From Ramlibacter sp. (GTDB lineage: Bacteria; Pseudomonadota; Gammaproteobacteria; Burkholderiales; Burkholderiaceae_C), in NCBI RefSeq assembly GCF_013697775.1, contig NZ_JACCWG010000239.1, positions 1 through 51,583 of the forward strand: DNA of 51,583 nucleotides. Reading direction: 5' to 3'. The translations under genes were made by a program, and so were the position numbers. Position 1 is the stretch's first letter. Each line of letters begins with the position of its first letter. The notes under the pieces were generated by a model. The model saw only the letters and a program-made list of their open reading frames with translations. It had not been told where the DNA came from and searched no databases. Below, piece by piece: positions 25,964 to 47,549 of the stretch.

Positions 25964-26848
25964 TCAGGCCGCTGCCAGCATCTGCTGGTGCCGGTCGATG
26001 AACGACGTCACCAGGTCCAGCTGCGCCGGCACGTTCAGCGCCGGCGCGTGCCCGCAGCCGGGCACTTCCACCACGCGCAGCAGGCCCAGGGTGCCCGGGC
26101 CGCGGCGCTGCATCTCCTCGGTGGCATCGGGCAGCACCAGGTCGGACTCGGCGCCGCGCAGCACCAGCACCGGAATGCGCAGCCGGTCGTAGTGCTCCCA
26201 CAGGTCGTAATCGTTCGGGTGGTCGGTGAACTGCCGCACCATCGCCGGGTCGTAGTGCGGCGTCACGCGCCCATCGGGCAGGCGGCGCGCCGAGGTTTCG
26301 GCCAGGCGCCGCCACTGCGCGTCCGTCAACAGGCCGAACGGCTTGTAGACCTGCCGGAAGAAGGCTTCCAGCTGCGCCATGGTGTCGAAGGCCGGCGGAT
26401 TGCCGGCATAGGCGCGGATGCGCTCCACCGCCGGCGCCGACAGGCGCGGCGCGTTGTCGTTCATCACCAGGCTGGCGATGCGGTCCTTCATGCCCGGCTC
26501 ATGGATGCCGGCCGCGCACACCTCGCCGATGGCGCCGCCCATCGAGGTGCCGACCCAGTGCGCGCGCGCGATGCCGAGCCGGTCGAACAGCGCCGCGGCG
26601 GTGCGCGCGTAGAACGCCAGCGTGTACTCGTTGCCCGGGTCGGGGCTCCACTGGCTGAAGCCGCGGCCGATGGTGTCGGGGCAGATCACGCGGTAGCGGC
26701 CGCTCAGATGGTCGGCCAGTTCGTCCATGTCGCGGCCGGTGCGCGCGAGTCCATGCCAGGCGATCACCACCGGCGCGTTCGGCGAGCCCCACTCCGTGTA
26801 GTGCATCTCGCGCCCCGCGCAGGTGACGTAGTTGGAGGTGAATGGCAT
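25964..26848 (-). CDS. Alpha/beta hydrolase, last gene of the PHB operon
   Basis: A 294-residue cytoplasmic esterase-like protein with no signal peptide. It has the oxyanion strand VVIAWHGLARTGRD, the nucleophile elbow GTSMGG, an acid in LVLRGAESDLVLP and a terminal catalytic His in VPGCGHAPAL. It begins 14 bp after the 3-hydroxybutyrate-oligomer hydrolase. Position suggests it cleaves short 3-hydroxybutyrate esters imported by the transporter, but its sequence alone would only say general carboxylesterase or lactonase. Confidence 0.85.
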   Translation of the reverse strand: MPFTSNYVTCAGREMHYTEWGSPNAPVVIAWHGLARTGRDMDELADHLSGRYRVICPDTIGRGFSQWSPDPGNEYTLAFYARTAAALFDRLGIARAHWVGTSMGGAIGEVCAAGIHEPGMKDRIASLVMNDNAPRLSAPAVERIRAYAGNPPAFDTMAQLEAFFRQVYKPFGLLTDAQWRRLAETSARRLPDGRVTPHYDPAMVRQFTDHPNDYDLWEHYDRLRIPVLVLRGAESDLVLPDATEEMQRRGPGTLGLLRVVEVPGCGHAPALNVPAQLDLVTSFIDRHQQMLAAA

Positions 26849-26862
26849 GGACACTTCGCTCG

Positions 26863-29016
26863 TCAATCGGGAATGGTGACCGTTCCCGCCAAGAAGCCGA
26901 TGGCGTCGGCGGGCGCCGGTGCTGTCACGAAGGCCGGCACGTTGGCCGCGGTGATGGCCGGCGCCGTGCCAGGCACGCCACCGCGCGGCACGGTGCGCAC
27001 CACCTGGCTGGCCGGCAGCGCGCTGCCGTTCTTCAGGTGGCCGTACATCGCGTCGAGCGCGCGGTTGAGGTACACGTGCAGCGGCACGAAGCGGCTGTCG
27101 TAGCCGGGCAGCACGCTCGGCAAGCCGATGAAGGTATCGAAGTGCTGGGCGTTGGTGACCTCGATGTACGACAGCTTGCTGGCTGCGCCTTCCACCTTCT
27201 TGTTCAGGCCGAAGTATGGGCGCGAGGTGTGGTTGACCGGCAGCAGGTTGTCCGAGCGGCCGTGCACGATGATGGCCGGCTTGCCCTGCAGGTTGCCGTT
27301 GCGGCGCGTCTCGTCCAGCCCGGCCTGCAGCTTGAGCGCCTGCGGCGTGTTGCCGGTGACCAAATTGCGCAGGCACAGCGCGCCGTCCAGGTTCCAGTCG
27401 GCCACGCTCGCGGCGTTGAACGACAGGAAGTCGCGCGCCGGCCCGAACTTGCCGTTGTTGTTCACCAGGTTGATGCCGCCAGCCGGCGGCACGCCGTTGC
27501 CGGTGGCGAACATGCCGGCCAGCGCCGCCGCCGGCGCCAGCGTGGTGATGCTGCCGTTCGCGGCCGTGGCGGCGTAGCTGAAGCCGCACAGGTTGTCCTT
27601 CACGCTGGCGCGCGACAGCGCGTTGGCGAAGGTCACTGCGACGGCGGGTGCGATTTCGAACGCGGCGTGCGAGGCCTGCAGGATGGCCGCATCGGGCTCC
27701 CAGCCGTAGGCCAGCAGCTTGTGCAGCGACTCCTCGGCCTGTTCGGCGGTGGTGGAGGCGTTCAGCAGCCCCTGCGCCTTCAGCGCGGCGCAGCGGTTCG
27801 GCGCCACCGGAAACGCGGGCGCCGCGAAGCCGGCCGCGTAGGCGGCGGCGAACGGACCGCTCGCGATGGAGGGCGCGAGCGAGGCGCAGGCCTGGTACAG
27901 GTTGGCGTAGGTGGTGAAGTCGATCAGCGGCTTGCCGACCACCGGCACGGTGGTGTTGCCGCGCCTGATGGTGATGCCTGCGTTGGCCGGCATCTCCACC
28001 GCGGGTTCGGCCACCGCCACGCCGCGGATCAGGCCGCGCGTGTCCTGCTCGGCCGCCGCGATGGCGGCACCGCCGCCGTTGGACACGCTGGAGGCGATGA
28101 CGATGGTGTTGCCGGGCGTGAGCGTGGCGTAGCGGCGGCCGCCGCCGTCCTGGTCGCCGTACTTCTCGTTCAGCACGTACAGCGCGAACTCCGCCGCCTG
28201 CAGCGTGAACTTGCCCCAGTCCTTCTCCACGTTGTGCCCGGAATGCGCGTGCTTGAAGGCGTAGCGGTTCGGCGTAACGGCGTTGAATGCGGCCAGCTCG
28301 GTGCCGCTCAAGCCGGCATTGAACTGCGCGGCCGTGCCGGCCGCGGCCGCGCTCGTACGCCGGCCGTCGATCAGCGGCACGGTGTCGTTTTGCAGGTCGT
28401 GCGGCGCGGCGCCGGTGCCCTTGTCCGTGTAGGCGACGGCGCAGCCGTGCTTCAGGCCCCACTCGCCGGTGGAGATGGCGCCGTACACGCCGCGCGAGCC
28501 TGACGACGCGGCGGCAATGATGCAGGGATTGGCTTTGTCGAAGGTGGCCGGCACCTGCACCATCAGCGTCACGTTCTGGCGGCCGCTGCCGTCGTCGGAG
28601 AACGCGATGTACTCGGTGCCCGCGATCTTGCCGCTGCCGGCCGTCGGCGTGCCGCCCACGTCCACCGACGGGCCGTACAGGGTGCCGTAGCCACCGGCCG
28701 CCGTGGTGTCGACGATGGCGCGGTAGCTGTTGTAGATGGCCGCGCGGCGCAGCTCGGCGGCCGTCGGCGCCTCGGCATTCGCATAGGCCGGCGGCGTCGC
28801 CGACGCGAGGCCGCTTGCGCCCAGGCCGGCGGTCAACAGGTCGTCGCCGCTGCCGTCGTAGGTGGCGGACATCACGCTGCCCAGGAATGCAGGCTTCTCG
28901 TTCACCTGCTGCGATGACGAATCGCCGCAGCCGGCGGCCAGCGCCGCGCAGGCCAGCCCCACACCCGCCAGTCCCATCGTGCCCGCCGTGCCGGCGGCAT
29001 GCTGTTTCTTCGTCAT
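26863..29016 (-). CDS. D-(-)-3-hydroxybutyrate oligomer hydrolase (lipoprotein)
   Basis: A 717-residue hydrolase that splits soluble 3-hydroxybutyrate oligomers released by PHB depolymerase. The signal ends in lipobox LAAGC (Cys30), so a membrane-anchored periplasmic or surface location is predicted. The nucleophile motif SSVSNGG (Ser312) and a late VHGRSDNLLPVNHTSRPYF block match the oligomer-hydrolase family (Pfam 3HBOH). ATG 29016 is preceded by AAGGA and overlaps the livM stop codon as ATGA, so translation is coupled to the transporter. An open frame upstream to 29163 is out of frame with livM and not used. Confidence 0.9.
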   Translation of the reverse strand: MTKKQHAAGTAGTMGLAGVGLACAALAAGCGDSSSQQVNEKPAFLGSVMSATYDGSGDDLLTAGLGASGLASATPPAYANAEAPTAAELRRAAIYNSYRAIVDTTAAGGYGTLYGPSVDVGGTPTAGSGKIAGTEYIAFSDDGSGRQNVTLMVQVPATFDKANPCIIAAASSGSRGVYGAISTGEWGLKHGCAVAYTDKGTGAAPHDLQNDTVPLIDGRRTSAAAAGTAAQFNAGLSGTELAAFNAVTPNRYAFKHAHSGHNVEKDWGKFTLQAAEFALYVLNEKYGDQDGGGRRYATLTPGNTIVIASSVSNGGGAAIAAAEQDTRGLIRGVAVAEPAVEMPANAGITIRRGNTTVPVVGKPLIDFTTYANLYQACASLAPSIASGPFAAAYAAGFAAPAFPVAPNRCAALKAQGLLNASTTAEQAEESLHKLLAYGWEPDAAILQASHAAFEIAPAVAVTFANALSRASVKDNLCGFSYAATAANGSITTLAPAAALAGMFATGNGVPPAGGINLVNNNGKFGPARDFLSFNAASVADWNLDGALCLRNLVTGNTPQALKLQAGLDETRRNGNLQGKPAIIVHGRSDNLLPVNHTSRPYFGLNKKVEGAASKLSYIEVTNAQHFDTFIGLPSVLPGYDSRFVPLHVYLNRALDAMYGHLKNGSALPASQVVRTVPRGGVPGTAPAITAANVPAFVTAPAPADAIGFLAGTVTIPD

Positions 29017-30104
29017 GTGCGTTTTCCTTGCATGAGCTTGTGTTGCGTGGAAGCGGCGCGCAGCCGCCCCACCACACCAGTGGGGAAGTAATAGACCGAG
29101 AGCACGAACAGCACGCCCAGCCATAGCAGCCAGCGGTCCGGCGACAGCAGCGCGGCCAGCCATGGCAGGCCCGACGCGGCTTCGCTGCCCAGCCGCAGCA
29201 GGTCCTGCAGGTAGCTTTGCGCCACCACGAACAGGCCGGCGCCGAGCGCGGCGCCATACACCGTGCCCATGCCGCCGATGACGACGATCAGCAGCACGTC
29301 GAGCATGATCTCGAACGACAGCGAAGTGTCCGGCCCGTTGTAGCGAAGCCAGAGCGCCAGCATGGCGCCGGCCAGCGTGGCGAACAGCGCCGACAAAATG
29401 CTGGAGAGCGTGCGGAACACCACCACGCGGTAGCCGATGGCCTCGGCGCGGAACTCGTTCTCGCGGATCGCCTGCAGCACGCGGCCGAACGGCGAATTCA
29501 CGATGCGCAGCAGGGCCAGGAACAGCACCAGCGCCACAACGAACAGCAGGTAGTAGCAGACCAGGCGCCCGTCGAGCGTGACGCCGAAGAGCGGCTGTTC
29601 GGCCAGCGCGAAGCTGGGCGACAGGACTTCCGGCACCTTGAAGGTCAGGCCGTCCTCGCCGCCGGTGATCTCCGACAGCTGCGAGGCCAGCGTCTGGAAC
29701 GCCGCCGCCACCGCCAGCGTGATCATCGAAAAGAAGATCGCCCGCACGCGCAGCGAAAACAGGCCGATGGCCAGCGCCAGCACGAAGGACAGCGCCAGCG
29801 CGCCGGCGATGCCCGTGAACAGTGCGCCCCAGGTCGGGCCGAACCGCGTGAAGGCGATCGCCACGCCATAGGCACCGATACCGAAGAACATGGTGTGGGC
29901 GAAGCTGACGATGCCGGTATAGCCCAGCAGCAGGTCGAAGCTCGCCACCAGCACCACGAACACCAGCACCTTGGCGGCGACGTTGAGCGCCTTCACGCCG
30001 GGGAAGACGAACGGCGCGAACGCCAGCGCGAGCAGCAGCACGACGAGCAGCACGGCCAGCACGCGGCTGCGCGGGAAATCGGTGGAAAGGATGCGGGCTA
30101 GCAT
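29013..30104 (-). CDS. livM: Liv-type ABC permease (LivM), PHB operon
   Basis: Inner-membrane permease of 363 residues with about 9 hydrophobic segments. The LivM signature is seen in LLGYTGIVSFAHTMFFGIGAY and in the loop GRVLQAIRENEFRAEAIGY. Generic annotation would be branched-chain amino-acid transport, but the stop codon overlaps the oligomer-hydrolase start, and the depolymerase gene lies upstream in the same transcript. 3-Hydroxybutyrate or its short oligomers are therefore the more likely cargo (inference). It starts 5 bp after livH. Confidence 0.9.
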   Translation of the reverse strand: MLARILSTDFPRSRVLAVLLVVLLLALAFAPFVFPGVKALNVAAKVLVFVVLVASFDLLLGYTGIVSFAHTMFFGIGAYGVAIAFTRFGPTWGALFTGIAGALALSFVLALAIGLFSLRVRAIFFSMITLAVAAAFQTLASQLSEITGGEDGLTFKVPEVLSPSFALAEQPLFGVTLDGRLVCYYLLFVVALVLFLALLRIVNSPFGRVLQAIRENEFRAEAIGYRVVVFRTLSSILSALFATLAGAMLALWLRYNGPDTSLSFEIMLDVLLIVVIGGMGTVYGAALGAGLFVVAQSYLQDLLRLGSEAASGLPWLAALLSPDRWLLWLGVLFVLSVYYFPTGVVGRLRAASTQHKLMQGKRT

Positions 30105-30109
30105 GGCGC

Positions 30110-31090
30110 TCACTTGTTCAGGGCGTACACGCCCTGTGGCCGCCACAGCAGGATGGCCATCATGAGCGCGATGTTGGAGAACAGCGCCGCCTTGGGCACC
30201 AGGAAGCCGGTGTAGTTGGCCATCAGGCCCACCAGCACGGCGCCCACCAGCGCGCCGGTGGTGGAGCCCAGCCCGCCGATGATGAGCACGATGAAGATCA
30301 GCACGTTGACCTGCGCGCCCATCTGCGGCGTCACATTCTGCTGGTACAGGCCCCACATCACGCCGCCCAGGCCCGCCAGCGCGCTGCCGACCACGAACAC
30401 GCCGATGAACAGCACGCGGATGCGGTAGCCCAGCGACTCCACCATCTCGCGGTCCTGCACGCCGGCGCGGATCAGGAGACCGATCTTGGTGCGCGTGAGC
30501 GTCCACAGCAGGCCGCCGAACACCAGCGCGCCGACCACCACCGCGAGCGCACGGTACTTCTCGACCGCGGCCTCGCCGAACAGGAGGGTGCCGCGCATGC
30601 CCTCGGGCAGCGGCAGCGGGATCTGCAGGGGGCCCCAGATGACCTTGATCAGCTCCTCGCCGATGATCATGCCGCCCATGGTGATGAGGATCTGCTTCAG
30701 GTGGTTGCCGTACACCGGCCGCACGATGAAGCGCTCGAACGCCAGGCCCACGGCCGCGGCGACCAGCATGGCGACCACCATCGCCGGCAGCACCGCCAGC
30801 AGGTTCATCCACAGGCTGGCCGAGCTGGTGTAGTCGGACATGCCGCCCAGCACGCTGGTGGCGACGAAGGCGCCCAGCGCGATGAACACGCCGTGGCCGA
30901 AATTCAGCACGTCCATCAGGCCGAACACCAGCGTGAGGCCGGAGGCGATGACGAAGATGATCATGCCCATGGCCAGCCCCGCCACCGTGAGCGTGACCCA
31001 GGTGGACAGCGAGCCGATAAAGGGCAGCACCGCCAGTGCCAGCAGCGGCACCAGGGCCAGCGGCTTCCAGTCGAAATCGATGTTCTTCAT
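30110..31090 (-). CDS. livH: Liv-type ABC permease (LivH), PHB operon
   Basis: A 326-residue permease partner of LivM with about 8 membrane segments. Typical motifs: GLTLVFGLMDVLNFGHGVFIALGAF and a cytoplasmic coupling loop with GVQDREMVESLGYR. The ATG overlaps the livF stop codon (ATGA), so it is translationally coupled. Confidence 0.92.
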   Translation of the reverse strand: MKNIDFDWKPLALVPLLALAVLPFIGSLSTWVTLTVAGLAMGMIIFVIASGLTLVFGLMDVLNFGHGVFIALGAFVATSVLGGMSDYTSSASLWMNLLAVLPAMVVAMLVAAAVGLAFERFIVRPVYGNHLKQILITMGGMIIGEELIKVIWGPLQIPLPLPEGMRGTLLFGEAAVEKYRALAVVVGALVFGGLLWTLTRTKIGLLIRAGVQDREMVESLGYRIRVLFIGVFVVGSALAGLGGVMWGLYQQNVTPQMGAQVNVLIFIVLIIGGLGSTTGALVGAVLVGLMANYTGFLVPKAALFSNIALMMAILLWRPQGVYALNK

Positions 31091-31812
31091 AGGGCCAGTC
31101 CCAGCAAGGACTGCTGCAGGGCCTCGTCGTCGGCCAGCTCCTTCATGGAGCCGGCATGCACGACCTGGCCGTTGTCCATCACGGCCACCGTGTCGCCCAG
31201 CCGCCTGGCGAAGTTGAAGTTCTGCTCCACCAGCAGGATGGTCACGCCGCTGGCTTTCAGCTGCGCGAAGGCGTCGATCATGTTGTTGATGATGGCGGGC
31301 GCCAGGCCCTTGCTCGGCTCGTCGATGACCAGCAGCTCGCGCGGCTCGACGATGGCGCGCGACACCGCGAGCATCTGCTTCTGGCCGCCCGAGAGCTTGC
31401 CGGCCGGGTGGTTCCAGAACTTCTCCACCGCCGGAAACAGCGAGAAGATCCACTTCAGCCGCGTGTCGTCCAGCTGGTCGGCGCGCTTGGCGGCGCGCGC
31501 GGCCAGAAGCATGTTTTCCTTGACCGTGAGGTCGGCGAAGATGCCCATGTTCTCGGGCACGTAGGCGACGTTCAGGCCGGCGATCTGCGGCGTGGGCCAG
31601 GCCGTGATGTCCTGCCCGCCGAAGGCGACGCGGCCGGCGGACGCGCGCCACAGGCCCATGATGGTCCGCAAGGTGGTTGTCTTGCCCGCGCCGTTTCGGC
31701 CCAGCAGCATGGTCAGCTGGCCGCGCGGCACGGCGAGGTCGACGCCGTGCAGGATGTGGTACGCCCCGATGTGGGTGTGCACGGCGGAAAGCGTGAGGAG
31801 ATTGGCGCTCAT
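31087..31812 (-). CDS. livF: Liv-type ABC ATPase (LivF), PHB operon
   Basis: A 241-residue ATPase: Walker A GRNGAGKTT, signature LSGGQKQMLA, Walker B LLVIDEPSKGL and switch His in LLVEQNFNFA (Gln/Asn-type end, as usual in LivF). It starts within the end of livG (overlap of 4 bp) and overlaps livH by 4 bp. Confidence 0.94.
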   Translation of the reverse strand: MSANLLTLSAVHTHIGAYHILHGVDLAVPRGQLTMLLGRNGAGKTTTLRTIMGLWRASAGRVAFGGQDITAWPTPQIAGLNVAYVPENMGIFADLTVKENMLLAARAAKRADQLDDTRLKWIFSLFPAVEKFWNHPAGKLSGGQKQMLAVSRAIVEPRELLVIDEPSKGLAPAIINNMIDAFAQLKASGVTILLVEQNFNFARRLGDTVAVMDNGQVVHAGSMKELADDEALQQSLLGLAL

Positions 31813-32717
31813 GGCTGCTCCCCCGTGCCGCGCAAAGGCCCTTCGACAGGCTCAGGGCGAACGGCCCCCACATCCCGTTCCGGTTTCACTGTGTTCCGTT
31901 CGGGTTGCGCTGCGTTCCGTTCGGGCTGAGCTTGTCGAAGCCCTTCCACTTCAGGGCGAACGGAGACGCCCAGATAAGCCTCTTGCACGATCGGCGACGC
32001 AATCACCTCCGCCGGTTCGCCATCCGCGACCAGCGCGCCGTTGTGCAGCACGATGATGCGGTCGGCCAGTTCGCGCACCACGTCCATCTTGTGCTCCACC
32101 AGCAGGATCGTCTTGGTCCTGTCTTCCTTGAGCTTGCGGATCAGGTTCAGGATCACCGGCGCCTCGGCGGCGTTCATGCCCGCCGTCGGCTCGTCGAACA
32201 TGAAGACCTGCGGCTGCAGCGCCATCAGCAGCGCGACTTCCAGCTTGCGCTGGTCGCCGTGCGGCAGGTTGGCCACCAGCTCGTGCTCCTTGTCGGCGAG
32301 TGCCACGGCGTGCAGCACCTCGTCGGCGCGCGCGGTCAGCGCAGTGTGGTCGCTCCACACGCTCCACAGGTTGAGGCCGCGGCCGTGCCCACCCTCGCGC
32401 GACGACTGCACGGCCAGCCGGATGTTCTCCAGCACGGTCAGGCGCGGGAACAGGTTGGTGAGCTGGAAGGCCCGCCCCAGGCCCGCGCGGGTGCGCTGCG
32501 ACGCGCTCAGGCCCGAGAGGTCGCGCCTGCCCAGCGAGACGCTGCCGGCCGAGGCCTTCAGCTGGCCCGAGATCAGGTTGAAGTACGTCGTCTTCCCCGC
32601 GCCGTTCGGCCCCACGATCGCAGTCAGCGTCCCCGGCTCGAAAGCGCAGGTGACGGCATTGACCGCGACGTGACCGCCGAAACGGATGGTCAGGTCCTTG
32701 GTGGCGAGCTGGCTCAT
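31809..32717 (-). CDS. livG: Liv-type ABC ATPase (LivG) with a repeat-derived C-terminal tail
   Basis: A 302-residue ATPase: Walker A GPNGAGKTT (36-44), LivG-type signature LPHGDQRKLEVA, Walker B VFMFDEPTAGMN and LLVEHKMDVV. The domain would normally end near residue 254. The last 48 residues (rich in Q-P-E-R-N and P-E-P-V-E-G) are encoded by a dispersed palindromic repeat (31839-31943) read through in frame, so this tail is probably an accident of repeat insertion. It starts 10 bp after the depolymerase gene. Confidence 0.92.
   Translation of the reverse strand: MSQLATKDLTIRFGGHVAVNAVTCAFEPGTLTAIVGPNGAGKTTYFNLISGQLKASAGSVSLGRRDLSGLSASQRTRAGLGRAFQLTNLFPRLTVLENIRLAVQSSREGGHGRGLNLWSVWSDHTALTARADEVLHAVALADKEHELVANLPHGDQRKLEVALLMALQPQVFMFDEPTAGMNAAEAPVILNLIRKLKEDRTKTILLVEHKMDVVRELADRIIVLHNGALVADGEPAEVIASPIVQEAYLGVSVRPEVEGLRQAQPERNAAQPERNTVKPERDVGAVRPEPVEGPLRGTGEQP
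31839..31943. repeat. Dispersed palindromic (REP-like) repeat inside the 3' end of livG
   Basis: CCCTTCGACAGGCTCAGGGC (from 31839) and GGGCTGAGCTTGTCGAAGCCC-type sequence (ending 31943) form inverted arms, with partial duplications of GTTCCGTTCGGG in between. This CTTCGACAAGCTCAG element is common between genes in Comamonadaceae and other proteobacteria. Here it is translated as the LivG tail. Confidence 0.8.
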
Positions 32718-32727
32718 CGAGCTTTCA

Positions 32728-34227
32728 TCAGGGACAGGTCCCGATCACGTAGTAGTTGGTGCCGGTCTGCTTCAGCGTGGTGGTCGCGAAGGTGTTCCAC
32801 AGGCCCATGTACTGGTTGGAGCCGTTGGCGTAGGTATAACCGCCCGACTGGTAGGCGCGCCCGGCCGTGGTGTGCGCGTAGTTGCTTGAGGTGTAGCAGG
32901 TCGCGGTGGCGCCCGCGAGCGTGGTGCCGCTGGCCGCTGCCGAGGCCGCGCCTTCCAGGCCGCCGCTGTCCACCGCGCGCACTGTCCACGAATAGGTGGT
33001 CGATGCCGCCAGGCCGGTGTCGGTGAAGCTGGTGCCGCCGACCTGCAGCGCGTTCACCTTGTTGCCGTTGCGGTACACGTTGTAGCCCGACGCGCCGGTG
33101 ACGGCGCTCCAGCCGATGGCCATGGTGCTGGTGGTCGCGCCCGAGGTGCTGACGCTGGCCGGCGCCGGCAGCGTGCCGCCGCCACCGCCCGAGCCGGTGC
33201 CCGAGGACAGCTGGTTCACCATCGCCTTGATCGCCGCGATCTGGGTGCCGCCCTTCTGCGCGAAATTGGTGCCGTACCAACCGATCCAGTCCCAGCAGCC
33301 GTTCGGGTTGGCCAGCGAGCCGCTGGCGGAAGTCGCGCGGCTTGTGCTGTCCACCTTGGCTTGCGGGAACAGAACGATGATGCCGTTGGTGTCGGCCCAG
33401 CGGGTGTAGCCGGTGTTCTTGATGAACTTGTCGCCGATGGTGGCGTAGTTCTGCTGGCAGCCGTGCAGCGCCACGTGCACCTTGCACTGGGTGCCGCTGG
33501 CGCAGCTGGCCGGCACGTACACCCAACCGGTGGCCGACATGCCCGGGTTGGCGGTGAAGGCGGCCTGGTCGAACTCGATGTAGTTGCCCGCGGCTGGCGC
33601 GTTGTTGCGCGCGTTCAGCCCGCCGTAGAAATGCGTGAACATCGCCTGCACGCCGTCATAGCCGCAGTTGCTGATGTAGGGCGAAGCGCTGGTGCCGCAG
33701 GCGTTGTCGCCGGTGCTGTCGAAGTCGGTCGGGAACACGTGGGCCGTGCTGGCGCGCGACACGTACAGCAGGTTGGCTGCCGTCACGCCGTTGTTGGTGT
33801 ACTGCGTCTTGGCGCCGAGCATGGGGTTCGGGCCCACCGTGGAGTCGCTGGTGCCCACGAACATGTAGACCTTCTGCGCCGCCACGTTGGCCTTGGCGTC
33901 GATCTGGCTGCCGCTCCAGTTGTTGATGTCGGCCTGCATCGTCGACAGCTGGGTGGAGCTGATGGTGGCGTTGTACATGCACGCCGTGTAGTTGCTGTGG
34001 CCGGCGCACATGTAGGGGCCGCCCGCGAAGATGCCCACGCCCTTGAAATAGGACGAATAGGCATAGCCCAGCTGGTTGGCCATGAAGCCGCCCGAGGACA
34101 GCCCGGACACCGTCGCCTTGGACGTGTCGACGTTGTACTTGGGAAGCGCCACCACCGCGTGCGCGGCCACGGTGGCGAGAGCCATCGCCGCGGCGGCGGC
34201 GAGGGTGCGAAGCAGTCTGAATTTCAT
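32728..34227 (-). CDS. phaZ: Extracellular PHB depolymerase
   Basis: Secreted polyester hydrolase of 499 residues that degrades extracellular poly(3-hydroxybutyrate) granules. Order: signal peptide (1-24, ending AAHA); catalytic domain with the lipase box GLSSG (42-46, Ser44) near its N-terminus and the oxyanion motif LHGCQQ (254-259) after it, the circularly permuted type-2 arrangement; Gly-rich linker (341-352); fibronectin type III domain (about 354-437); and a C-terminal granule-binding domain (444-499) with flanking cysteines. ATG 34227 follows AAGGAG. It lies between the binding-protein gene and livG in one operon. Confidence 0.93.
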   Translation of the reverse strand: MKFRLLRTLAAAAAMALATVAAHAVVALPKYNVDTSKATVSGLSSGGFMANQLGYAYSSYFKGVGIFAGGPYMCAGHSNYTACMYNATISSTQLSTMQADINNWSGSQIDAKANVAAQKVYMFVGTSDSTVGPNPMLGAKTQYTNNGVTAANLLYVSRASTAHVFPTDFDSTGDNACGTSASPYISNCGYDGVQAMFTHFYGGLNARNNAPAAGNYIEFDQAAFTANPGMSATGWVYVPASCASGTQCKVHVALHGCQQNYATIGDKFIKNTGYTRWADTNGIIVLFPQAKVDSTSRATSASGSLANPNGCWDWIGWYGTNFAQKGGTQIAAIKAMVNQLSSGTGSGGGGGTLPAPASVSTSGATTSTMAIGWSAVTGASGYNVYRNGNKVNALQVGGTSFTDTGLAASTTYSWTVRAVDSGGLEGAASAAASGTTLAGATATCYTSSNYAHTTAGRAYQSGGYTYANGSNQYMGLWNTFATTTLKQTGTNYYVIGTCP

Positions 34228-34274
34228 TGCGTTGTCTCCTTGATATAGCGGGATTCCGTCATGGCGATGCCCAT

Positions 34275-34292
34275 CCCCCGTGTGCCCGGGGG
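34275..34292 (-). repeat. Intercistronic hairpin between binding protein and depolymerase
   Basis: CCCCCG and CGGGGG flank a 6-base loop. There is no T run on the minus side, so it probably protects the upstream binding-protein message rather than terminating it, which would favour excess binding protein. Confidence 0.6.
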
Positions 34293-34327
34293 TTGTTCTC
34301 AACGTGAAAGTTAGCGGTGCAGGCGCT

Positions 34328-35524
34328 TCAGCGCTTGTTGCGGATCGGGACGTTCATCTCTTCCGGCTTGATCTCGCGGACCAGCTCGGGAACGCCCCAG
34401 GGGAAGGCCGGATCGACCTTGATCTTGAAGTGGTACATGGACTGCATGGCCTGGTGGTCTTCCTTGCGGAAAGTCATGCGGCCCTTGGGCGTGTCGAAGC
34501 TCATGCCTTCCATGGCGGCAATCAGCTTGTCGGCGCTGGCGTCGCCGTTGGTCTTCTTCAGCGCGGCCACGGCGGCCATGGCGGCGGAGAAGCCGCCGGC
34601 GGTGAAGAAGTCCGGCGGCGCCTTGAACTGCTTGTAGTGCGCGGCCACCAGGGCTTCGTTCACCGGGTTCTTCGGGATGCCGAAGTAGTAGTAGGTGGCG
34701 CCTTCCATGCCCGGGAACTGCTTGTACGAGGCCATGGCCGGCAGGATGTTGCCTCCGGTGAAGACGTCGATGTTGTAGCGCTGCTTCAGGTTCTGCGCGG
34801 CCAGCGCGTTGTACGGCGGTACGCCGCCGGCCCAGATCACCTCGATGGCCTTGTTGCCCGGCAGGTCCTTGATCCGATCGACGATGCGCTGGATGCCGGC
34901 GGTGAAGTCGGTGGTGGCCTGCGGCAGGTATTCCTCATGGACGATCTTGGCGTTCTTCAGAGCGTCCTTGAAGGCCTTCACGCCGTCGCGGCCGAACGCG
35001 TAGTCCTGCGCCAGCGTGGCAACCACGGTGCCCGGCTTGTCCATCGCCACCGCGTTGGAGATCGCGTCCTGCGAGCTGTTGCGCCCGGTGCGGAAGATGT
35101 ACTTGTTCCACTTGTCGCCGGTGATCGAATCGGCCACGGCCGGCTCGACCAGCAGGATCTTCTTGTACTCCTCGGCCACCGGCAGCATGGCCAGCGCAAC
35201 GCCGGAGGAACTGGGGCCGATGGCCATGTCGGCCTTGTCGTCGGAATAGGCGGTGGCCAGCAGCGACTTGCCCAGGTCCGGCTTGCCCTGGTCGTCCTTC
35301 TCGATGATGACGATCTTCTTGCCGCCGACCATCATGGTGCCGCCGGTGGCGTAGTCCAGGCCCATCATCAGGCCGGTCTGCGTCTGCTTGCCGTAGGCTT
35401 CCAGCGGGCCGGTACGGCTGTAGACGTGGGCGATGCGGATTTCCTTGCTCTGGGCGAACGCCAGCGGGCAAGCGAGTGCGGCGACGGTGGCTGCGGCAAG
35501 CACAGTCAAGGTACGGCGGTTCAT
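34328..35524 (-). CDS. Periplasmic binding protein of the PHB-operon Liv transporter
   Basis: A 398-residue type I periplasmic binding protein of the branched-chain-amino-acid (HAAT) type. The signal peptide ends ACPLAFA. The core begins IRIAHVYSRTGPLEAYGKQTQTGLMMG, and the two-lobe pattern continues through IFRTGRNSSQDA and FTGGNILPA. ATG 35527 and ATG 35524 are adjacent; the second is better spaced from AGGAG. It is first gene of the PHB operon and lies behind a sigma-54 promoter. The ligand is inferred to be 3-hydroxybutyrate or an oligomer, not leucine. Confidence 0.88.
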   Translation of the reverse strand: MNRRTLTVLAAATVAALACPLAFAQSKEIRIAHVYSRTGPLEAYGKQTQTGLMMGLDYATGGTMMVGGKKIVIIEKDDQGKPDLGKSLLATAYSDDKADMAIGPSSSGVALAMLPVAEEYKKILLVEPAVADSITGDKWNKYIFRTGRNSSQDAISNAVAMDKPGTVVATLAQDYAFGRDGVKAFKDALKNAKIVHEEYLPQATTDFTAGIQRIVDRIKDLPGNKAIEVIWAGGVPPYNALAAQNLKQRYNIDVFTGGNILPAMASYKQFPGMEGATYYYFGIPKNPVNEALVAAHYKQFKAPPDFFTAGGFSAAMAAVAALKKTNGDASADKLIAAMEGMSFDTPKGRMTFRKEDHQAMQSMYHFKIKVDPAFPWGVPELVREIKPEEMNVPIRNKR

Positions 35525-35550
35525 CATGTCTCCTAGTTTGCAGACGACCT

Positions 35551-35566
35551 TGCACGCACCGTGCCA
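35551..35566 (-). promoter_or_regulatory. Sigma-54 (-24/-12) promoter of the PHB operon
   Basis: The minus strand reads TGGCACG-GTGC-GTGCA. The -24 GG and -12 GC are exactly 10 bp apart and the -24 element is a full consensus match (TGGCACG). A start near 35540 leaves a leader of about 15 nt carrying AGGAG before the binding-protein ATG. Confidence 0.75.

Positions 35567-35650: not shown

Positions 35651-35665
<15 letters not shown>
35631..35665 (-). promoter_or_regulatory. Candidate upstream activator sites
   Basis: Two dyads, GACACTTGACTGTC (35631-35644) and CAGGCAGTTGTCTG (35652-35665), lie about 65-100 bp upstream of the -24 element, the normal distance for an enhancer-binding protein. 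They overlap the end of the activator gene itself. Symmetry is imperfect, so this is tentative. Confidence 0.35.
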
Positions 35666-37108
<1,443 letters not shown>

Positions 37109-37109
37109 C

Positions 37110-37853
37110 TCAGTGCCCCAGGATCTTGGACAGGAAGTCCCGGCTGCGCTCGCTCTGGGGATTGTTGAAGAAGTCGTGCGGGTTGCCGCGCTCGACGATC
37201 TGGCCTTCGTCCATGAAGATCACGCAGTCGGCCACCGCCTTGGCGAAGCCCATCTCGTGGGTCACGCACAGCATGGTGATGCCCTGCCCGGCCAGCTCGA
37301 TCATCACGTCGAGCACCTCCTTGATCATCTCCGGGTCGAGCGCCGAGGTCGGCTCGTCGAACAGCATGATCTTCGGCGTGAGGCACAGCGCCCGCGCGAT
37401 GGCCACGCGCTGCTGCTGCCCGCCCGACAGCTGCAGCGGGAACTTGCTGGCCTGGTCGGCGATGCGCACGCGTTCCAGCTGCTGCATGGCGCGCTCCACC
37501 GCCTCTTTTCGCGGCAGCTTGCCCACCCACATGGGCGACAGGATCAGGTTGTCCAGCACGCTCAGATGCGGGAACAGGTTGAACTGCTGGAACACCATGC
37601 CGACCTTCCTGCGCACGGCGTCGATGGCTTTCACGTCGTCGGCCAGTTCCACGCCGTCGACCACCAGGCGGCCTTCCTGGTGTTCCTCGAGGCGGTTGAT
37701 GCAGCGGATCAGCGTGGACTTGCCCGAGCCGGACGGACCGCAGATGACGATGCGTTCACCGCGCCCCACCTCCAGGTCGATGTCGCGCAGCACGTGGAAG
37801 TCGTTGCCGTACCACTTGTTGACCTTGTCGAAGCTGATGATGGATTCGGGCAT
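37110..37853 (-). CDS. aapP: Polar amino-acid ABC ATPase (AapP-like)
   Basis: A 247-residue ATPase: Walker [10 protein letters not shown], signature [10 protein letters not shown], Walker [15 protein letters not shown] and switch His in CVTHEMGFA. Very close to AapP/GltL-type ATPases. Last transport gene of aapJ-Q-M-P and followed by the activator gene after one base. Confidence 0.93.
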
Positions 37854-37872
37854 GGCAGGACCTGCTTTCGGC

Positions 37873-38979
37873 TCAGCGCCGTTTGCTCGTGTTGACCTCG
37901 CGCTCCACCCAGCGGCTGTAGCGCGACATGGAAAAGCAGAACACGAAGTAGATCAGCGCGATGAAGAAATAGCCTTGCAGCTTGAACACCTTCCAGTTCG
38001 GGTCGGCGTTCAGCGCGAGGTCGAGCGCGCCGGTGAGCTCGTACAAGCTGACGATGCTTACCAGCGAGGTGTCCTTGAAGATCGAGATGAAGCTGTTGAC
38101 GATGCTGGGCACCACCATCGCCAGCGCCTGCGGCAGCACGATCTTGCGCTGGGCCTGCCAGTACGACAGGCCCAGCGTCGCCGCCGCCTCCACCTGGCCG
38201 CGCGGCACCGCCTGCAGGCCGCCGCGGATCACCTCGGCGAGATACGCCGCGGCGAACAGCGTCATGCCGGCCAGCACGCGGATCAGCACGTCGATGGTCA
38301 CGCCCTGCGGCATGAACAGCGGGAACATGAACGAGGCCATGAACAGCACCGAGATCAGCGGCACGCCACGGATCAGCTCCACGTAGACGGTGCAGATGGC
38401 GCGGATGGCCGGCAGGTCGGATCGCCGGCCCAACGCGACCGCCAGCGCGATCGGGAACGCCATGCCGATGGACAGCGTGGACAGCAGCACGGTGAGCGAC
38501 AGGCCGCCCCAGCGATCGGTCTCCACCTTCGACAGGCCCAGCACGTTGCCGTGCATCAGCATCAGGAACACCGCCAGAACGGCGAGCCAGGCGACCGCCA
38601 GCCACGATTTCCAGAACACGCGCATGCAGCTGGCCACCAGCATCGCCAGCATCAGCAGGGTGGCCACCAGCGGACGCCACTGCTGGTCGAACGGATAGCG
38701 GCCCAACACGATCACGCGGTACTTCTCGGCCACCACGCCCCAGCAGGCGCCCACGCCCTCGGCGGCGCGGCAGGCCACGAGGTCGGGCCGCCACACGGCG
38801 TTGAGCACCGCCCAGTTCAGGAAGCGCGGCAGCACCCACGCCAGCAGCGCACACACCAGCAGCGTGCCGGCCGCCGTGCGCCAGTCGTGGAACAGGTTGG
38901 CGCGCGTCCAGGCGAGCGGGCCCTGCGTGCGGCGCGGCGCCGGGCGCGGGACGATGGAGCGGAAACTGCTTGCGCTCAT
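37873..38979 (-). CDS. aapM: General L-amino-acid ABC permease (AapM-like)
   Basis: A 368-residue inner-membrane permease. The N-terminal half has extra helices and a short insert with two cysteines ([13 protein letters not shown]), as in AapM; the C-terminal half is a standard His/Glu/Gln permease domain with the ATPase-contact loop [22 protein letters not shown]. It starts 7 bp after aapQ. Confidence 0.9.
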
Positions 38980-38986
38980 GCTGTGC

Positions 38987-40162
38987 TCAGCGTTCCTTGA
39001 TGGCGACGCGCGCGTTGTACCAGTTCATGGCGCCCGAGGTCAGCAGCGACAGCGTGAGGTACACCGCCATCAGGATGGCGATGCACTCCACCGCGCGGCC
39101 GGTCTGGTTCATCGCGGTGTTGGCGATGGACACCACGTCGGGGTACCCGATGGCGACCGCCAGCGAGGAGTTCTTGGTGAGGTTCAGGTACTGGTTGGTC
39201 AGGGGCGGCACGATCACGCGCAGCGCCTGCGGCAGCATCACCAGGCGCAGCTCCATGCCGCGGTCCAGCCCCAGCGCGGCCGCGGCCTCGCCCTGGCCGG
39301 CCGGCACGGCGGCGATGCCCGAGCGCACCACTTCGGCGATGAAGGACGCCGTGTAGAGCGACAGGCCCATCAGCAGCGCCAGGAATTCCGGCGTCAGCGC
39401 GCCGCCGTTCTCCACCGCGAACTCGCCCTTCATGGGGAAGTCCAGCACGGTGGACGCGCCGCCGGCCAGCCAGCCGGCGAAGCCGCCCACCAGCAGCAGC
39501 CCGATGGGCACCCAGACCATGCTGAGCGGCCGGCCGGTCTGCTCGAAGCGCTTGCGCGCCCAGCGCCGGTACAGCCACATCAGCACTACGCCGGCGCCCA
39601 GGCCTGCCAGCGTCCAGGCCTCGCCCGGTCCCCAGACCGGGGCGGGAAAATTCAGGCCCCCCTTGCTCAGGAAGAACGGCCCGACTTTCCAGGCTTCCTG
39701 CAGGGAAGGCAGCATTTCGGTGAGCACCAGGTACCACATCAGCAGCTGGATCAGCACCGGCACGTTGCGGAATGCTTCCACGTAGCCGGCGCACAGGCCG
39801 CGCACCAGGGCGTTGCGCGAGAAGCGGCCGATCCCGACCAGCGTGCCGATCAGGGTGGCGAAGATGATGCCGGCGACGGCCACGCGCAGCGTGTTGCTCA
39901 GGCCGATGCCGAAGGCGCGCACATACGACTCGGTGGAGTCGAAGGGGTACAGGCTCTCGCCAATGGTGAAGCCGGCGGGCTGGCTGAGGAAATCGAAGCC
40001 GCTCTGGATGCCGCGCACGCGCATGTTGTACGCGGTGTTGGAGGCGAGGAACCACACCACCAGCGCGATGGCGGCCACGGCGACCAGCTGATAGACCAGC
40101 CCGCGGAAGGCGCGGCTGCGCCAGGACCAGCTCTTCTTGCGCGGCGGCTTCTTTGCTTGCAT
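38987..40162 (-). CDS. aapQ: General L-amino-acid ABC permease (AapQ-like)
   Basis: A 391-residue permease with a basic cytoplasmic N-terminus (KKPPRKKSW), about 8 membrane helices and the coupling loop GEAAAALGLDRGMELRLVMLPQALR. The long insertion between helices is typical of AapQ/BztB rather than GltJ. Second gene of the operon, 71 bp after aapJ across a strong hairpin. Confidence 0.9.
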   Translation of the reverse strand: MQAKKPPRKKSWSWRSRAFRGLVYQLVAVAAIALVVWFLASNTAYNMRVRGIQSGFDFLSQPAGFTIGESLYPFDSTESYVRAFGIGLSNTLRVAVAGIIFATLIGTLVGIGRFSRNALVRGLCAGYVEAFRNVPVLIQLLMWYLVLTEMLPSLQEAWKVGPFFLSKGGLNFPAPVWGPGEAWTLAGLGAGVVLMWLYRRWARKRFEQTGRPLSMVWVPIGLLLVGGFAGWLAGGASTVLDFPMKGEFAVENGGALTPEFLALLMGLSLYTASFIAEVVRSGIAAVPAGQGEAAAALGLDRGMELRLVMLPQALRVIVPPLTNQYLNLTKNSSLAVAIGYPDVVSIANTAMNQTGRAVECIAILMAVYLTLSLLTSGAMNWYNARVAIKER

Positions 40163-40184
40163 GTCGGACAGGGGTATGCAACAT

Positions 40185-40210
40185 GCGGGCCCGGCCGGGG
40201 CCGGGCCCGC
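40185..40210 (-). repeat. Perfect GC hairpin between aapJ and aapQ
   Basis: GCGGGCCCGGCC and GGCCGGGCCCGC form a perfect 12-bp stem around two bases. There is no T run. It follows the binding-protein gene and is likely an mRNA-stability element that keeps aapJ message above the permease message. Confidence 0.7.
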
Positions 40211-40233
40211 TGTCGCGAACTGCGCTCAGGTGC

Positions 40234-41268
40234 TCAGCGGATCGGGTAGGCGTACATCAGGCCGCCCTTGTTCCACTGGTTGTTCAGGCCGCGCGGCAGC
40301 CCCAGGGCCGACTTCGGGCCGACGTTGCGCTCGAAGATCTCGCCGTAGTTGCCGGTGGCCTTGAGGGCGCGTGCCATCCAGTCCTTGTCCAGGCCGAGCA
40401 GCTTGCCCATGTCCTCGCCGGTGCCCAGGATGCGGCGCACCACCGGGTCCTGGCTGCTGGTCTTCAGGCTGTCCACGTTGGCCTGGGTGATGCCGTACTC
40501 CTCGGCCTCGATCAGGCCGTAGACCACCCATTTGACGATGGCGAACCACTCGTCGTCGCCGCGGCGCACCAGCGGGCCCAGCGGCTCCTTGGAGACCAGC
40601 TCGGACAGGATGATGTGGTCGTCCGGCTTGGGCGCGACCTTGTTGCGGATGGAGGCCAAGCCCGAGGCATCGGTGGTGTAGGACACGCAGCGGCCGGCGA
40701 AATAGGCGGCGGTGGCCGCTTCTTCCTTCTCGAACACCACCGTCTTGATGTTCAGGTTGTTGGTCTTGGAGAAGTCGGTGAGGTTCTTCTCGGTGGTGGT
40801 GCCCGACTGCACGCAGATCGTCTGGTTCTTGAACTGCTTGGTGCTCTTGATGCCGCTCTTCTTGGTGACGATGAAGCCCTGGCCGTCGTAGTACGTGGCC
40901 GTGATCTGGTTCAGGCCCAGCGAGGCGTCGCGGGTCAGCGTGAGCGTGGTGTTGCGCGACAGCAGGTCGAGCTCGCCGGACTGCAGCGCGGCGAAGCGCT
41001 GCTGCGCCGTCAGCGGCACATACTTCACCTTTTCCGGGTCGCCCAGCACGGCGGCGGCGACGGCGCGGCAGACGTCCACGTCCAGCCCGGACCACTTGCC
41101 CGCGGCGTCCGCGGCGGAGAAACCGGCCAGGCCGGTGTGCACGCCGCACACCATCTGCCCGCGCTGCTTCACGCCGTCCAGGGTCTTGCCGGCCAGCGCG
41201 GCCGTCGTGGACGCCATCGCGCCCACGGCCACGGCCAGGGCAATGCAGCGCTTGCTGAGTCTGTTCAT
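40234..41268 (-). CDS. aapJ: Periplasmic L-amino-acid binding protein (AapJ-like)
   Basis: A 344-residue type II binding protein of the SBP_bac_3 family. Signal peptide 1-26 (ending TTAALA). Signature region GKWSGLDVDVCRAVAAAVLGDPEKVKYVPL and DLLSRNTTLTLTRD are typical of AapJ/BztA proteins that take several polar amino acids. ATG is preceded by GAGGAG. First gene of the aapJQMP operon, behind a sigma-54 promoter. Confidence 0.92.
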   Translation of the reverse strand: MNRLSKRCIALAVAVGAMASTTAALAGKTLDGVKQRGQMVCGVHTGLAGFSAADAAGKWSGLDVDVCRAVAAAVLGDPEKVKYVPLTAQQRFAALQSGELDLLSRNTTLTLTRDASLGLNQITATYYDGQGFIVTKKSGIKSTKQFKNQTICVQSGTTTEKNLTDFSKTNNLNIKTVVFEKEEAATAAYFAGRCVSYTTDASGLASIRNKVAPKPDDHIILSELVSKEPLGPLVRRGDDEWFAIVKWVVYGLIEAEEYGITQANVDSLKTSSQDPVVRRILGTGEDMGKLLGLDKDWMARALKATGNYGEIFERNVGPKSALGLPRGLNNQWNKGGLMYAYPIR

Positions 41269-41368: not shown

Positions 41369-42880
41369 TCAACCCGGAGTCGGCACGGGTTCCGGCCGCA
41401 TCCAGCGCTTGAGCACCCGCGGCACCACCAGCACCAGCACGATCACCACCAATAGCGCGATGGACATGGGCCGCTGCACGAACACCGCGGCGCTGCCTTC
41501 GCCGATGGAGATGGCGTTGCGCATCTGCGCCTCGGCCAGCGGGCCCAGGATCATGCCCACGATCACCGGCGCGGTCGGGAAGTCGAAGCGGCGCATCAGC
41601 ACGCCCACCAGGCCGATCCCCCACAGCAGCACCAGGTCGAACGCGCTTTGCCGCATGCCGTAGGCCCCGACGGTGGCGAAGATCAGGATGCCGGCATAGA
41701 GCTGAGGTTTGGGAATCTTCAGCAGCTGCACCCACAGCTTCACCATCGGAAGGTTCAGCACCAGAAGCATCACGTTGCCGATGTAGAGCGATGCGATCAG
41801 CGCCCACACCAGCGTGGCGGAGGTGGTGAACAGCTGCGGGCCCGGCTGGATGCCGTAGTTCTGGAACGCGCCCAGCAGGATGGCGGTGGTGTTGGAGGTC
41901 GGGATGCCCAGCGTCAGCAGCGGGATCATCGCGGTGGTGACGGTGGCGTTGTTGGCTGCCTCCGGCCCGGCGACGCCCTCGATGGCGCCCACCGTGCCGA
42001 ACTCCGCCTTGTTCTCGCCCTTGGCCAGCTTCTTCTCCACCGCGTAGCTGAGGAAGGTCGGGATCTCGGTGCCGCCGGCCGGGATGCAGCCGAACGGCGC
42101 GCCGATGGCGGTGGCGCGCAGCCAGGCCGGAATCGAGCGGCGCCAGTCCTGCCTGGTCATGTAGACCTTGCTCATGGGGTTGCGGGTTTCCGTCTCGCGG
42201 CCCTCGTACAGCGCGAAGTACAGCACCTCGGCCACGGCGAACAGGCCGACCGCCACCAGCACGATCTCGATGCCGTCCAGCAGTTCCGGAACGCCGCCGA
42301 TGTAGCGCGCCTGCCCCGAGATCTGGTCCAGGCCGACCAGGCCGATCGCCAGGCCCAGGAACAGCGCCGCCATGCCGCGCAGCGTGCTCTTGCCCAGCAC
42401 CGCGCTGACGGTGGTGAAGGCCAGAACCATCAGCAGGAAATACTCGGGTGGCCCGAGCTTCACCGCGAAGTCGGCCACATAGGGCGCGAACAGCGTGACG
42501 ATCAGCGTGGCGATGGTGCCCGCCACGAACGAGCCGATGGCGGCAGTGGCCAGCGCCGCGCCGGCGCGCCCGCTCTTGGCCATCTTGTTGCCCTCCATCG
42601 CCGTCACCATGCTGGCCGTTTCGCCGGGCGTGTTCAGCAGGATGGACGTGGTGGAGCCGCCGTACATCGCGCCGTAGTAGATGCCGGAGAAGAAGATCAT
42701 CGATGCGGTGATGTCCACCTTGGCCGTGATCGGCAGCAGCATGGCCACCGCCACCGCCGGGCCGATGCCGGGCAGCACGCCAACGGCCGTGCCCAGCACG
42801 CAGCCGATGAAGGCCCACATCAGGTTAATGGGCGTGATGGCGGTGGCGAAGCCACCCATGAGCGCGGAGAAGATGTCCAT
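41369..42880 (-). CDS. tctA: Tripartite tricarboxylate transporter large permease TctA
   Basis: A 503-residue inner-membrane permease with about 12 helices. TctA hallmarks: [17 protein letters not shown] and [27 protein letters not shown], repeated in the second half as [13 protein letters not shown] and [18 protein letters not shown]. It imports citrate or related tricarboxylates with TctB and TctC. ATG is preceded by GGAG. Last gene of tctC-B-A. Confidence 0.93.
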
Positions 42881-42894
42881 GTCAGTCTCCGCAG

Positions 42895-42960
42895 AGCCGC
42901 CTCAAGGAGGCTGAAGCCCCCTCGGGGGGCAGCGAGTGAACGAAGTGAAGAGCGTGGGGG
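42895..42960. repeat. Comamonadaceae-type intergenic repeat between tctB and tctA
   Basis: A block with two hairpins, GCCTC-AAG-GAGGC and GCCCCC-TC-GGGGGGC (42916-42930), followed by the motif AGCGAGTGAACGAAGTGAAG. This composite element is widespread between genes in Comamonadaceae genomes. It probably affects the tctB-tctA message only mildly. Confidence 0.65.
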
Positions 42961-42969
42961 TTCATGGTT

Positions 42970-43491
42970 TTAGATCCACCCGGTTTGCGTCAGGCCCGGC
43001 AGGTTGATTGCCAGGAATTTGGTGAACATCCAGTACACGGGCGCGGAAATCACCAGCCCGGCGGCCAGGTCGGTCGCCAGCACCGCAGGCGTCGAGGCAC
43101 CCGCCTGGCCCTGCGCGCGCCGCAGGCCCTGCACCGTCAGCACGTAGCACAGCGTGCAGCTCAGGATGAAGCCGATGGTGGTGATCAGCGCCGCGTTCGC
43201 CAGCAGCCCCGCCGAGACCCACACCAGGCCCGGCCACCAGCCGCGCGCCGCGCCCGAGGGCGCATCCAGCTCGCGAAAGCCCCCGCTGCGCGCCTCGCGC
43301 ACCATCAGCACGCCGCAAATGGAGAGCACCAGCGCCACCAGCCAGGGCAGGAAGTTGGGCCCCACGCCGCCGTAGCCGGCGGCCGAGGGAATGGTGAGCG
43401 CGCCGCCCGCCAGGCCGAGGCCGGTGAGCAGGATGCCCGCGCCGACCAGCGTCTGCGCGAGCCGCTGGGATGAAGATCCGTCTTGCGTCAT
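42970..43491 (-). CDS. tctB: Tripartite tricarboxylate transporter small permease TctB
   Basis: A 173-residue membrane protein with 4 predicted helices, the usual form of the small TctB subunit (IPSAAGYGGVGPNFLPWLVALVLSICG). The ATG at 43491 has GGAG seven bases upstream; frames extending further run into the terminator hairpin ahead of it. Confidence 0.85.
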   Translation of the reverse strand: MTQDGSSSQRLAQTLVGAGILLTGLGLAGGALTIPSAAGYGGVGPNFLPWLVALVLSICGVLMVREARSGGFRELDAPSGAARGWWPGLVWVSAGLLANAALITTIGFILSCTLCYVLTVQGLRRAQGQAGASTPAVLATDLAAGLVISAPVYWMFTKFLAINLPGLTQTGWI

Positions 43492-43507
43492 GAGGTGCTC
43501 CGGGAAC

Positions 43508-43533
43508 AAAAAACGCCCGGTGGAAGCCGGGCG
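43508..43533 (-). terminator. Terminator/attenuator between tctC and tctB
   Basis: CGCCCGG (43514-43520) and CCGGGCG (43527-43533) form a stem followed on the minus strand by six T residues. It lies inside the operon, 15 bp before the tctB start, so it should act as a partial terminator giving more TctC than TctBA. Confidence 0.8.
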
Positions 43534-43566
43534 GTACTGCTTGGCGGAAGGGAACGCGACAGCGCG

Positions 43567-47526: not shown

Positions 47527-47549
47527 GAAGCATAGGGATCACACGCCAG

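Follow-up and report, generated by a model that had tools for sequence, protein, structure and literature searches.

We found that a 51,583-nt contig of Ramlibacter sp. (NZ_JACCWG010000239.1, assembly GCF_013697775.1), which in its full length we call the window, carries an operon that is likely to be a sigma54-controlled system for the utilization of poly(3-hydroxybutyrate) (PHB). It combines genes for a sigma54 activator (EBP), a periplasmic binding protein (SBP), a PHB depolymerase (PhaZ), the LivGFHM subunits of a Liv-type (HAAT) ABC importer, an oligomer hydrolase (OH) and an α/β hydrolase (ABH). Judging from these partners, the importer probably carries a PHB-derived ligand, namely 3-hydroxybutyrate (3HB) and/or its short oligomers, with the case nearly evenly balanced between monomer and oligomer. 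The gene order, the protein families, the conservation of the promoter, the recurrence of the arrangement and the turnover of its hydrolases are all observed directly in the genomes.

The coupling of PHB hydrolases to a Liv-type importer, which the original prediction had proposed from this one genome, extends far beyond it. We searched 250 genomes of the host family, covering 126 genera, for OH (PF10605, excluding weak or fragmentary matches), LivM (E<=1e-100) and type-2 depolymerases (NF050059, E<=1e-50), and compared the positions of the matches. LivM was present in 137 of the 250 genomes. OH was represented by 87 genes in 82 genomes, 47 of which lie directly after livM on the same strand, 57-276 bp past the LivM match. 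Type-2 depolymerases amounted to 63 genes in 58 genomes; 34 of these share the strand of LivM and precede it by 2.7-3.4 kb, a distance that places the depolymerase just before livG. When only genomes holding both partners are considered, OH occupies the slot after livM in 47/57 and a depolymerase stands just before livG in 34/39; hence the phaZ-liv adjacency, whose survey had been suggested as a check, is conserved in the host family. As the arrangement recurs in this manner, a chance neighborhood can be rejected. Among the 137 importer genomes, both sites are filled in 20, only the depolymerase is present in 14, only OH in 27, and neither in 76. The last figure shows that describing the importer as "dedicated" to PHB was too strong: the hydrolases are optional for the importer, yet fixed at two sites where they do stand beside it.

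In the window itself, the eight minus-strand genes had been described as running from the binding protein through the depolymerase, livG, livF, livH, livM and OH to ABH, and reading frames and family matches confirm this order (35527-25964). The EBP gene directly upstream is a ninth member of the operon that had not been listed, nor had the -24/-12 site that precedes the SBP gene (Table 1). The spacing is also as described, with gaps of at most 14 bp from the depolymerase onward (10 bp for depolymerase/livG, 5 bp for livH/livM and 14 bp for OH/ABH) and ATGA overlaps at livF/livH and livM/OH, to which we add a third at livG/livF. The sole larger gap, of 100 bp between the SBP and depolymerase genes, contains a GC-rich inverted repeat, noted by eye, at 34292-34275. 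A pair of palindromic repeats (TTCGACAAGCTCAG and an inverted near copy) lies at the 3' end of livG (31842-31939); two matches of this palindrome occurred in 0/100 shuffles. The livG gene has 302 codons, being about 50 longer than the matches of its relatives, which span roughly 250 residues.

Table 1. Components of the operon, with coordinates in the window
Feature	Position	Strand	Basis
PAS + sigma54 AAA + Fis-type HTH activator (EBP)	35651..37108	-	Pfam Sigma54_activat, PAS_4, HTH_8
Predicted sigma54 -24/-12 promoter TGGCACGGTGCGTGCA	35551..35566	-	11/12 scored consensus positions
Periplasmic binding protein, HAAT type (SBP)	34328..35527	-	Peripla_BP_6
Type-2 short-chain PHA depolymerase, predicted secreted, with fn3 (PhaZ)	32728..34227	-	NF050059; match to PDB 2d80/2d81
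livG ATPase	31809..32717	-	ABC_tran, BCA_ABC_TP_C
livF ATPase	31087..31812	-	ABC_tran
livH permease	30110..31090	-	BPD_transp_2
livM permease	29013..30104	-	BPD_transp_2; scanned inside longer reading frame
3HB-oligomer hydrolase, lipoprotein-like signal LAAGC (OH)	26863..29016	-	PF10605 (3HBOH)
α/β hydrolase, motif GTSMG, probably cytosolic (ABH)	25964..26848	-	Abhydrolase_1; scanned inside longer reading frame

By its sequence signatures, an activator with an AAA domain and a -24/-12 site, the operon is predicted to be sigma54-dependent. A match to at least 10 of the 12 consensus positions was found upstream of SBP in 79/86 regions, or 78/85 without L057, whose match is spurious, its upstream region being truncated, and was discounted; 0/86 shuffled upstream regions (one mononucleotide shuffle each) gave such a match. 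An EBP gene was visible upstream of 66 of the 84 collected operons, as some loci end short of it. Eleven further scans away from the operon gave one site (10/12), which precedes the depolymerase of L146. The regulatory association is also seen without the importer: L156 combines EBP, a sigma54 site (11/12), OH and ABH, L158 has EBP, OH and a weaker site (9/12), and in L157 OH adjoins ABH with neither an importer nor a sigma54 site found. These arrangements indicate that EBP, OH and ABH can stand together in the absence of the importer. Among importers outside the host family a site precedes SBP in L200, L203, L207 and L208, and none was found before SBP in L198, L199 and L210. In four distant loci of one genus (L182, L183, L185 and L187) an activator 48-49% identical to EBP lies near SBP; GGDEF/EAL genes were identified in L187, with homologs recognized by similarity in the other three.

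The importer belongs to the HAAT class, as it combines a Peripla_BP_6 protein with two BPD_transp_2 permeases and two ABC_tran ATPases. Its SBP scored 62.3 bits against the LivJ/K-type NCBIfam model PRK15404 (cut-off 477), and the subunits likewise remained under the cut-offs for the urea importer UrtABCDE (UrtA 61.5/492.75; UrtE 213/285.8; UrtB 149.2/250.3; UrtD 202.9/304.1 bits). A comparison with E. coli LivJ/LivK showed that LivJ positions T102, D121 and E226, which we take to be the amino-acid contacts under this numbering, are replaced by V, N and I in 85/85 SBP orthologs, including that of the window. The same residues were seen in 11 distant orthologs (V 11/11, N 11/11, I 10/11). The alignment near position 102 might be off by one residue, and no hydroxyl residue occurs there in either register. 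The replacement of these contacts makes an α-amino acid an unlikely ligand of the main SBP, and the pocket residues are compatible with a hydroxy acid or a hydroxy-acid ester without identifying the ligand. A second binding protein found in some loci (SBP2; two sequences compared) retains T at 102 but not the other two contacts (G/S at 121, V at 226). The closest solved structures, 3n0x (E 5e-166, query 29-399) and 3nnd (E 1e-157, query 28-381), are close homologs of SBP deposited under the entry name "possible substrate binding protein", which gives no function. We take both to be from R. palustris, and a literature search for RPA4397, presumably the gene name for 3n0x, found no paper. An AlphaFold model of SBP had a mean pLDDT of 65.7 and was not used.

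The depolymerase scored 372.7 bits against the type-2 short-chain-length PHA model NF050059 (cut-off 280), and its catalytic domain aligned throughout with PHB depolymerase E (PDB 2d80/2d81; E 1e-102), with preservation of the serine, aspartate and histidine motifs of 2d80, whose aligned residues are presumably catalytic. Its N-terminus appears signal-like by eye, and 11/31 homologs passed a crude hydropathy test (median 1.92). A second type-2 depolymerase, 39% identical to it, is encoded on another contig of the same genome (G000:C203:605-1594; L161). OH matched PF10605 with 1031.9 bits (cut-off 27) over model positions 2-688 of 688, and is the sole OH detected in this genome (assembly 97.7% complete). 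It looks like a secreted lipoprotein: 50/59 OH homologs in the slot and 20/27 other OHs have a strict lipobox, and the LAAGC of the window protein fails the strict pattern and matches a relaxed one. Such a signal suggests that esters are cleaved at least partly outside, with some hydrolysis preceding import. No solved relative of OH was found by sequence at E<=0.001; an AlphaFold model was usable (pLDDT 77.2, pTM 0.83), and its best Foldseek match to MHETase (E 1.1e-6, TM ~0.3, rmsd ~14-15, 13% identity) is only a hint. ABH differs from these enzymes in its N-terminal hydropathy (median 0.36; 0/98 at >=2.0) and is probably cytosolic. As the threshold of 2.0 misses many secreted proteins, being passed by SBP in 53/70, depolymerase in 11/31 and OH in 4/6 sequences, the low median (0.36 versus 1.92-2.37) is weightier here than the count of 0/98. 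ABH scored 36.8 bits against the intracellular PHA depolymerase model NF050089 (cut-off 300) and, when scanned alone, matched no NCBIfam family at E<=1e-40.

To delineate what is constant in the operon we used a collection of 80 named loci fetched by SBP, along with others chosen partly for PhaZ or OH. In 87 sources, including the window, all four liv genes passed the filters, and 84 of these have both SBP and ABH, the other three (L031, L037 and L059) ending at contig ends. L178, with EBP, a shortened livG match, livF, livH, livM, OH and ABH but no SBP match, was dropped by the length filter, and two of the 80 SBP loci (L008 and L060) showed an SBP gene and no liv genes. Given these counts and the frequency of EBP, the constant core is EBP-SBP-LivGFHM-ABH. 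The cargo is exchangeable: 15 of the 84 operons have both PhaZ and OH, 13 PhaZ only, 21 OH only and 35 neither. Acidovorax delafieldii DSM 64 (L039) is an example of a relative in which the operon is complete. On a concatenated LivGFHM tree of these operons the presence of PhaZ requires at least 15 changes and that of OH at least 16. On the OH tree (86 rows, some species twice) the slot OHs are spread over several deep groups, starred branches requiring at least 7 changes, and the PhaZ tree (64 rows) gives at least 6; both are quick trees with SH-aLRT support only, on which gain and loss are not distinguishable. Nonetheless, without repeated arrival it would be difficult to account for such a mixture of deep lineages in a single slot. 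We also considered PhaZ and OH as a co-inherited unit; this was unsupported on the tree, and the plain Fisher test that favored it (p 8e-4) ignores phylogeny.

Between livM (or OH) and ABH some relatives also have a carboxylesterase or SBP2. A lipoprotein-like PF00135 carboxylesterase fills the livM-ABH slot, with no OH, in three relatives (L015:16552-18360, L019:5029-6756 and L042:15173-16972). SBP2 was found at >=60% identity in 25 fetched loci, 22 of them with OH, beside two different HAAT permeases; at any identity the figures are 27 and 24, the two loci dropped (L072 and L102) being 33-34% identical, and the share with OH is biased upward as many loci were fetched for OH or PhaZ. In L145, L146 and L217 SBP2 and OH accompany permeases of another HAAT lineage. 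This second lineage (LivM 34-37% identical) was also seen near OH in L141, L143 and L151. A thiolase and an acyl-CoA ligase lie nearby in L145, an acyl-CoA ligase and a 3HB-dehydrogenase-like gene in L146, and L146 and L217 have both a depolymerase and SBP2. Because HAAT genes are common and these loci are possibly related, the second lineage counts for little unless 3HB genes or SBP2 are also present.

Beyond the host family we surveyed 300 genomes of the order (10 are listed under the host family). OH was present in 24 of the 300 and LivM likewise in 24, and 17 of the LivM genomes lie outside the family. Here the phaZ-liv adjacency holds for the depolymerase in two loci, but OH adjoins the importer in one genome only. 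In total, 15/17 outside-family importers adjoin a hydrolase or CoA-acid gene, whose identity was assigned, except in L181, L198 and L193, from its resemblance to scanned genes: 1) L198 and L199 have a type-2 depolymerase between SBP and livG, and a thiolase, an acyl-CoA ligase and a short-chain dehydrogenase after livM. In L198 the depolymerase exceeds its cut-off (385.6 versus 280), the last three genes have four-base overlaps, and the best matches of the dehydrogenase are to models of 3-hydroxybutyrate dehydrogenase, with scores short of the cut-offs (256.9/307.05; 251.4/258). Since both loci are from one genus, and L199 was assigned by similarity, they count as a single lineage. 2) L203, L204 and L208 have enoyl-CoA hydratase and acyl-CoA ligase genes, and L200 an enoyl-CoA hydratase. 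3) L201, L205, L206, L207 and L210 have an ABH at 59-62% identity. 4) L193, L209 and L211 have an ABH relative at 36-37%. 5) L181 (genome G535) has OH, with an acyl-CoA ligase gene between it and the importer. None of these genes was found beside the importer in L202 and L212. A search of the phylum matched 23/397 genomes, host family included; acyl-CoA ligases lie near the distant importers in 4/16 loci, which alone is weak evidence. A plasmid search matched 36 records, none of which covers 80% of the operon stretch.

Taken together, these observations suggest the following pathway. The PAS-containing activator would sense a signal, the putative inducer, and fire the -24/-12 promoter before the SBP gene. 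The secreted depolymerase is predicted to cut extracellular PHB, and OH may shorten the released products, either in the periplasm or on the cell surface. SBP and LivGFHM would then move 3HB and/or the shortest oligomers inward, ABH being the probable inside enzyme that splits imported esters to 3HB in the cytosol, where 3HB dehydrogenases encoded elsewhere would oxidize it. The genome has two matches over the cut-off for PHB_DH (3HB dehydrogenase) and a class I PHA synthase; seven LivM-like genes were found at E<=1e-15, including that of the operon. Of the bind-cut-import-hydrolyze sequence originally proposed, the linkage of the components stands, but OH probably acts at least partly before import, as its lipoprotein-like signal suggests. 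A more specific model, in which the HAAT importer carries the 3HB dimer and trimer, ABH is a dedicated cytosolic finishing enzyme, the hydrolase slots are interchangeable and SBP2 widens the ligand range, is offered tentatively, as falling a little short of an even chance.

A narrower version of the main reading, also a little short of an even chance, restricts the importer to the 3HB monomer (or short hydroxy acids), with PhaZ and OH doing all ester cutting outside and ABH serving some other step. The lipoprotein-like signal of OH favors at least some import of monomer, as oligomers could be cut before uptake, and the orthologous importers near enoyl-CoA hydratase and acyl-CoA ligase genes in L203, L204 and L208 fit a free acid. 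Against this, ABH is retained in all collected operons that are not contig-cut, even where PhaZ and OH are both lacking, and accompanies OH in loci lacking the importer (L156 and L157); this constancy favors some import of esters. An improbable alternative is that the core importer and ABH handle another short ester or hydroxy acid, and that PhaZ and OH joined them repeatedly only for sigma54 co-regulation. It would account for the host-family genomes having the core with neither hydrolase and for the carboxylesterase in L015, L019 and L042, but less readily for the presence of two kinds of PHB enzyme, drawn from several lineages, each at a fixed site of its own, or for the 3HB-dehydrogenase-like gene in the L198 operon. 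The possibility of an ordinary branched-chain amino-acid importer with incidental neighbors, suggested by the subunit family names, is very improbable and was ruled out as a leading reading by the pocket residues and gene context, namely the loss of the LivJ contacts in every ortholog, the low score with the LivJ/K-type model, the recurring PHB link in the host family and the finding, in a study of R. palustris, that Leu, Ile, Val or short amides caused a shift in "very few" of 22 proteins of this class that had unpredicted ligands (PMC3223731).

Several observations weigh against the assignment of the operon to PHB utilization. Over half of the family's importer genomes (76/137) have neither PhaZ nor OH in the slots, and 27/87 OHs are in genomes without an importer at the LivM threshold used, implying that OH works without it. 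On the importer tree the changes of PhaZ are not coupled to those of OH (sign test, median p 1). The carboxylesterase of a different family in the slot of three relatives points to a possibly broader substrate. In the order survey, LivM genomes from outside the family also have OH in only two cases, G535 and G699, and the two genes are neighbors only in the former. Finally, the 16 phylum-search loci (15 genomes) include one OH, that of L181, and no depolymerase match, so that the ancestral substrate may have been a wider class of short acids.

The rest of the window contains other transport genes, recognized by eye. Between EBP and a tripartite tricarboxylate transporter-like block lie genes resembling a general amino-acid ABC importer, with an ATPase, two permeases and a binding protein (37110-41268); similar ATPase and permease genes are also found beside EBP in L007 and L036. 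The tripartite block (41369-46751) comprises tctC (43567-44520), tctB (42970-43509) and tctA (41369-42880), together with genes for a response regulator and a kinase in divergent orientation. A tctA-like ORF is present in 33/97 compared sources, mostly upstream of EBP, and in L154, which has no Liv importer match, OH lies ~2.4 kb downstream of a tctC-like gene. A large plus-strand ORF at 47510-51415 resembles a patatin-type phospholipase.

How PHB breakdown products enter the cell is almost unknown, and this locus offers a candidate importer, a candidate inside hydrolase and a candidate regulator in one family. If the proposed function is correct, a group of importers labeled as branched-chain amino-acid transporters could be re-annotated, and the genes of the locus could be used, at the genome level, as markers of PHB utilization in the turnover of bioplastics. 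Among the matches listed by our search, no title or abstract opening describes a PhaZ-Liv operon, and a 2025 review on the biodegradation of PHA contains, in its main text, no word beginning with "transport", "uptake", "permease" or "oligomer hydrolase" (PMC11893044). In a 2023 paper hbtABC (SPO2571-2573), from Ruegeria pomeroyi, is presented as the sole bacterial system for 3HB uptake to have been confirmed (PMC10130141). This system shares its substrate with that proposed for the present importer but has three genes, and the passages of that paper dealing with it mention no polymer hydrolases and state no transporter class. E. coli LivJ/K-HMGF has the same HAAT subunit families and set, from which the operon differs by the replaced amino-acid contacts and the addition of PHB hydrolases, a sigma54 activator and ABH. 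The depolymerase 2d80/2d81, presumably a fungal enzyme from Penicillium, has the same type-2 catalytic domain, to which the operon enzyme adds fn3 and a setting within an importer operon. A parallel in overall logic is the PET system of PETase, MHETase and a terephthalate importer, which likewise unites a polymer cutter, an oligomer hydrolase and an importer, and whose MHETase the OH model weakly resembles, while the polymer and, presumably, the importer class are different.

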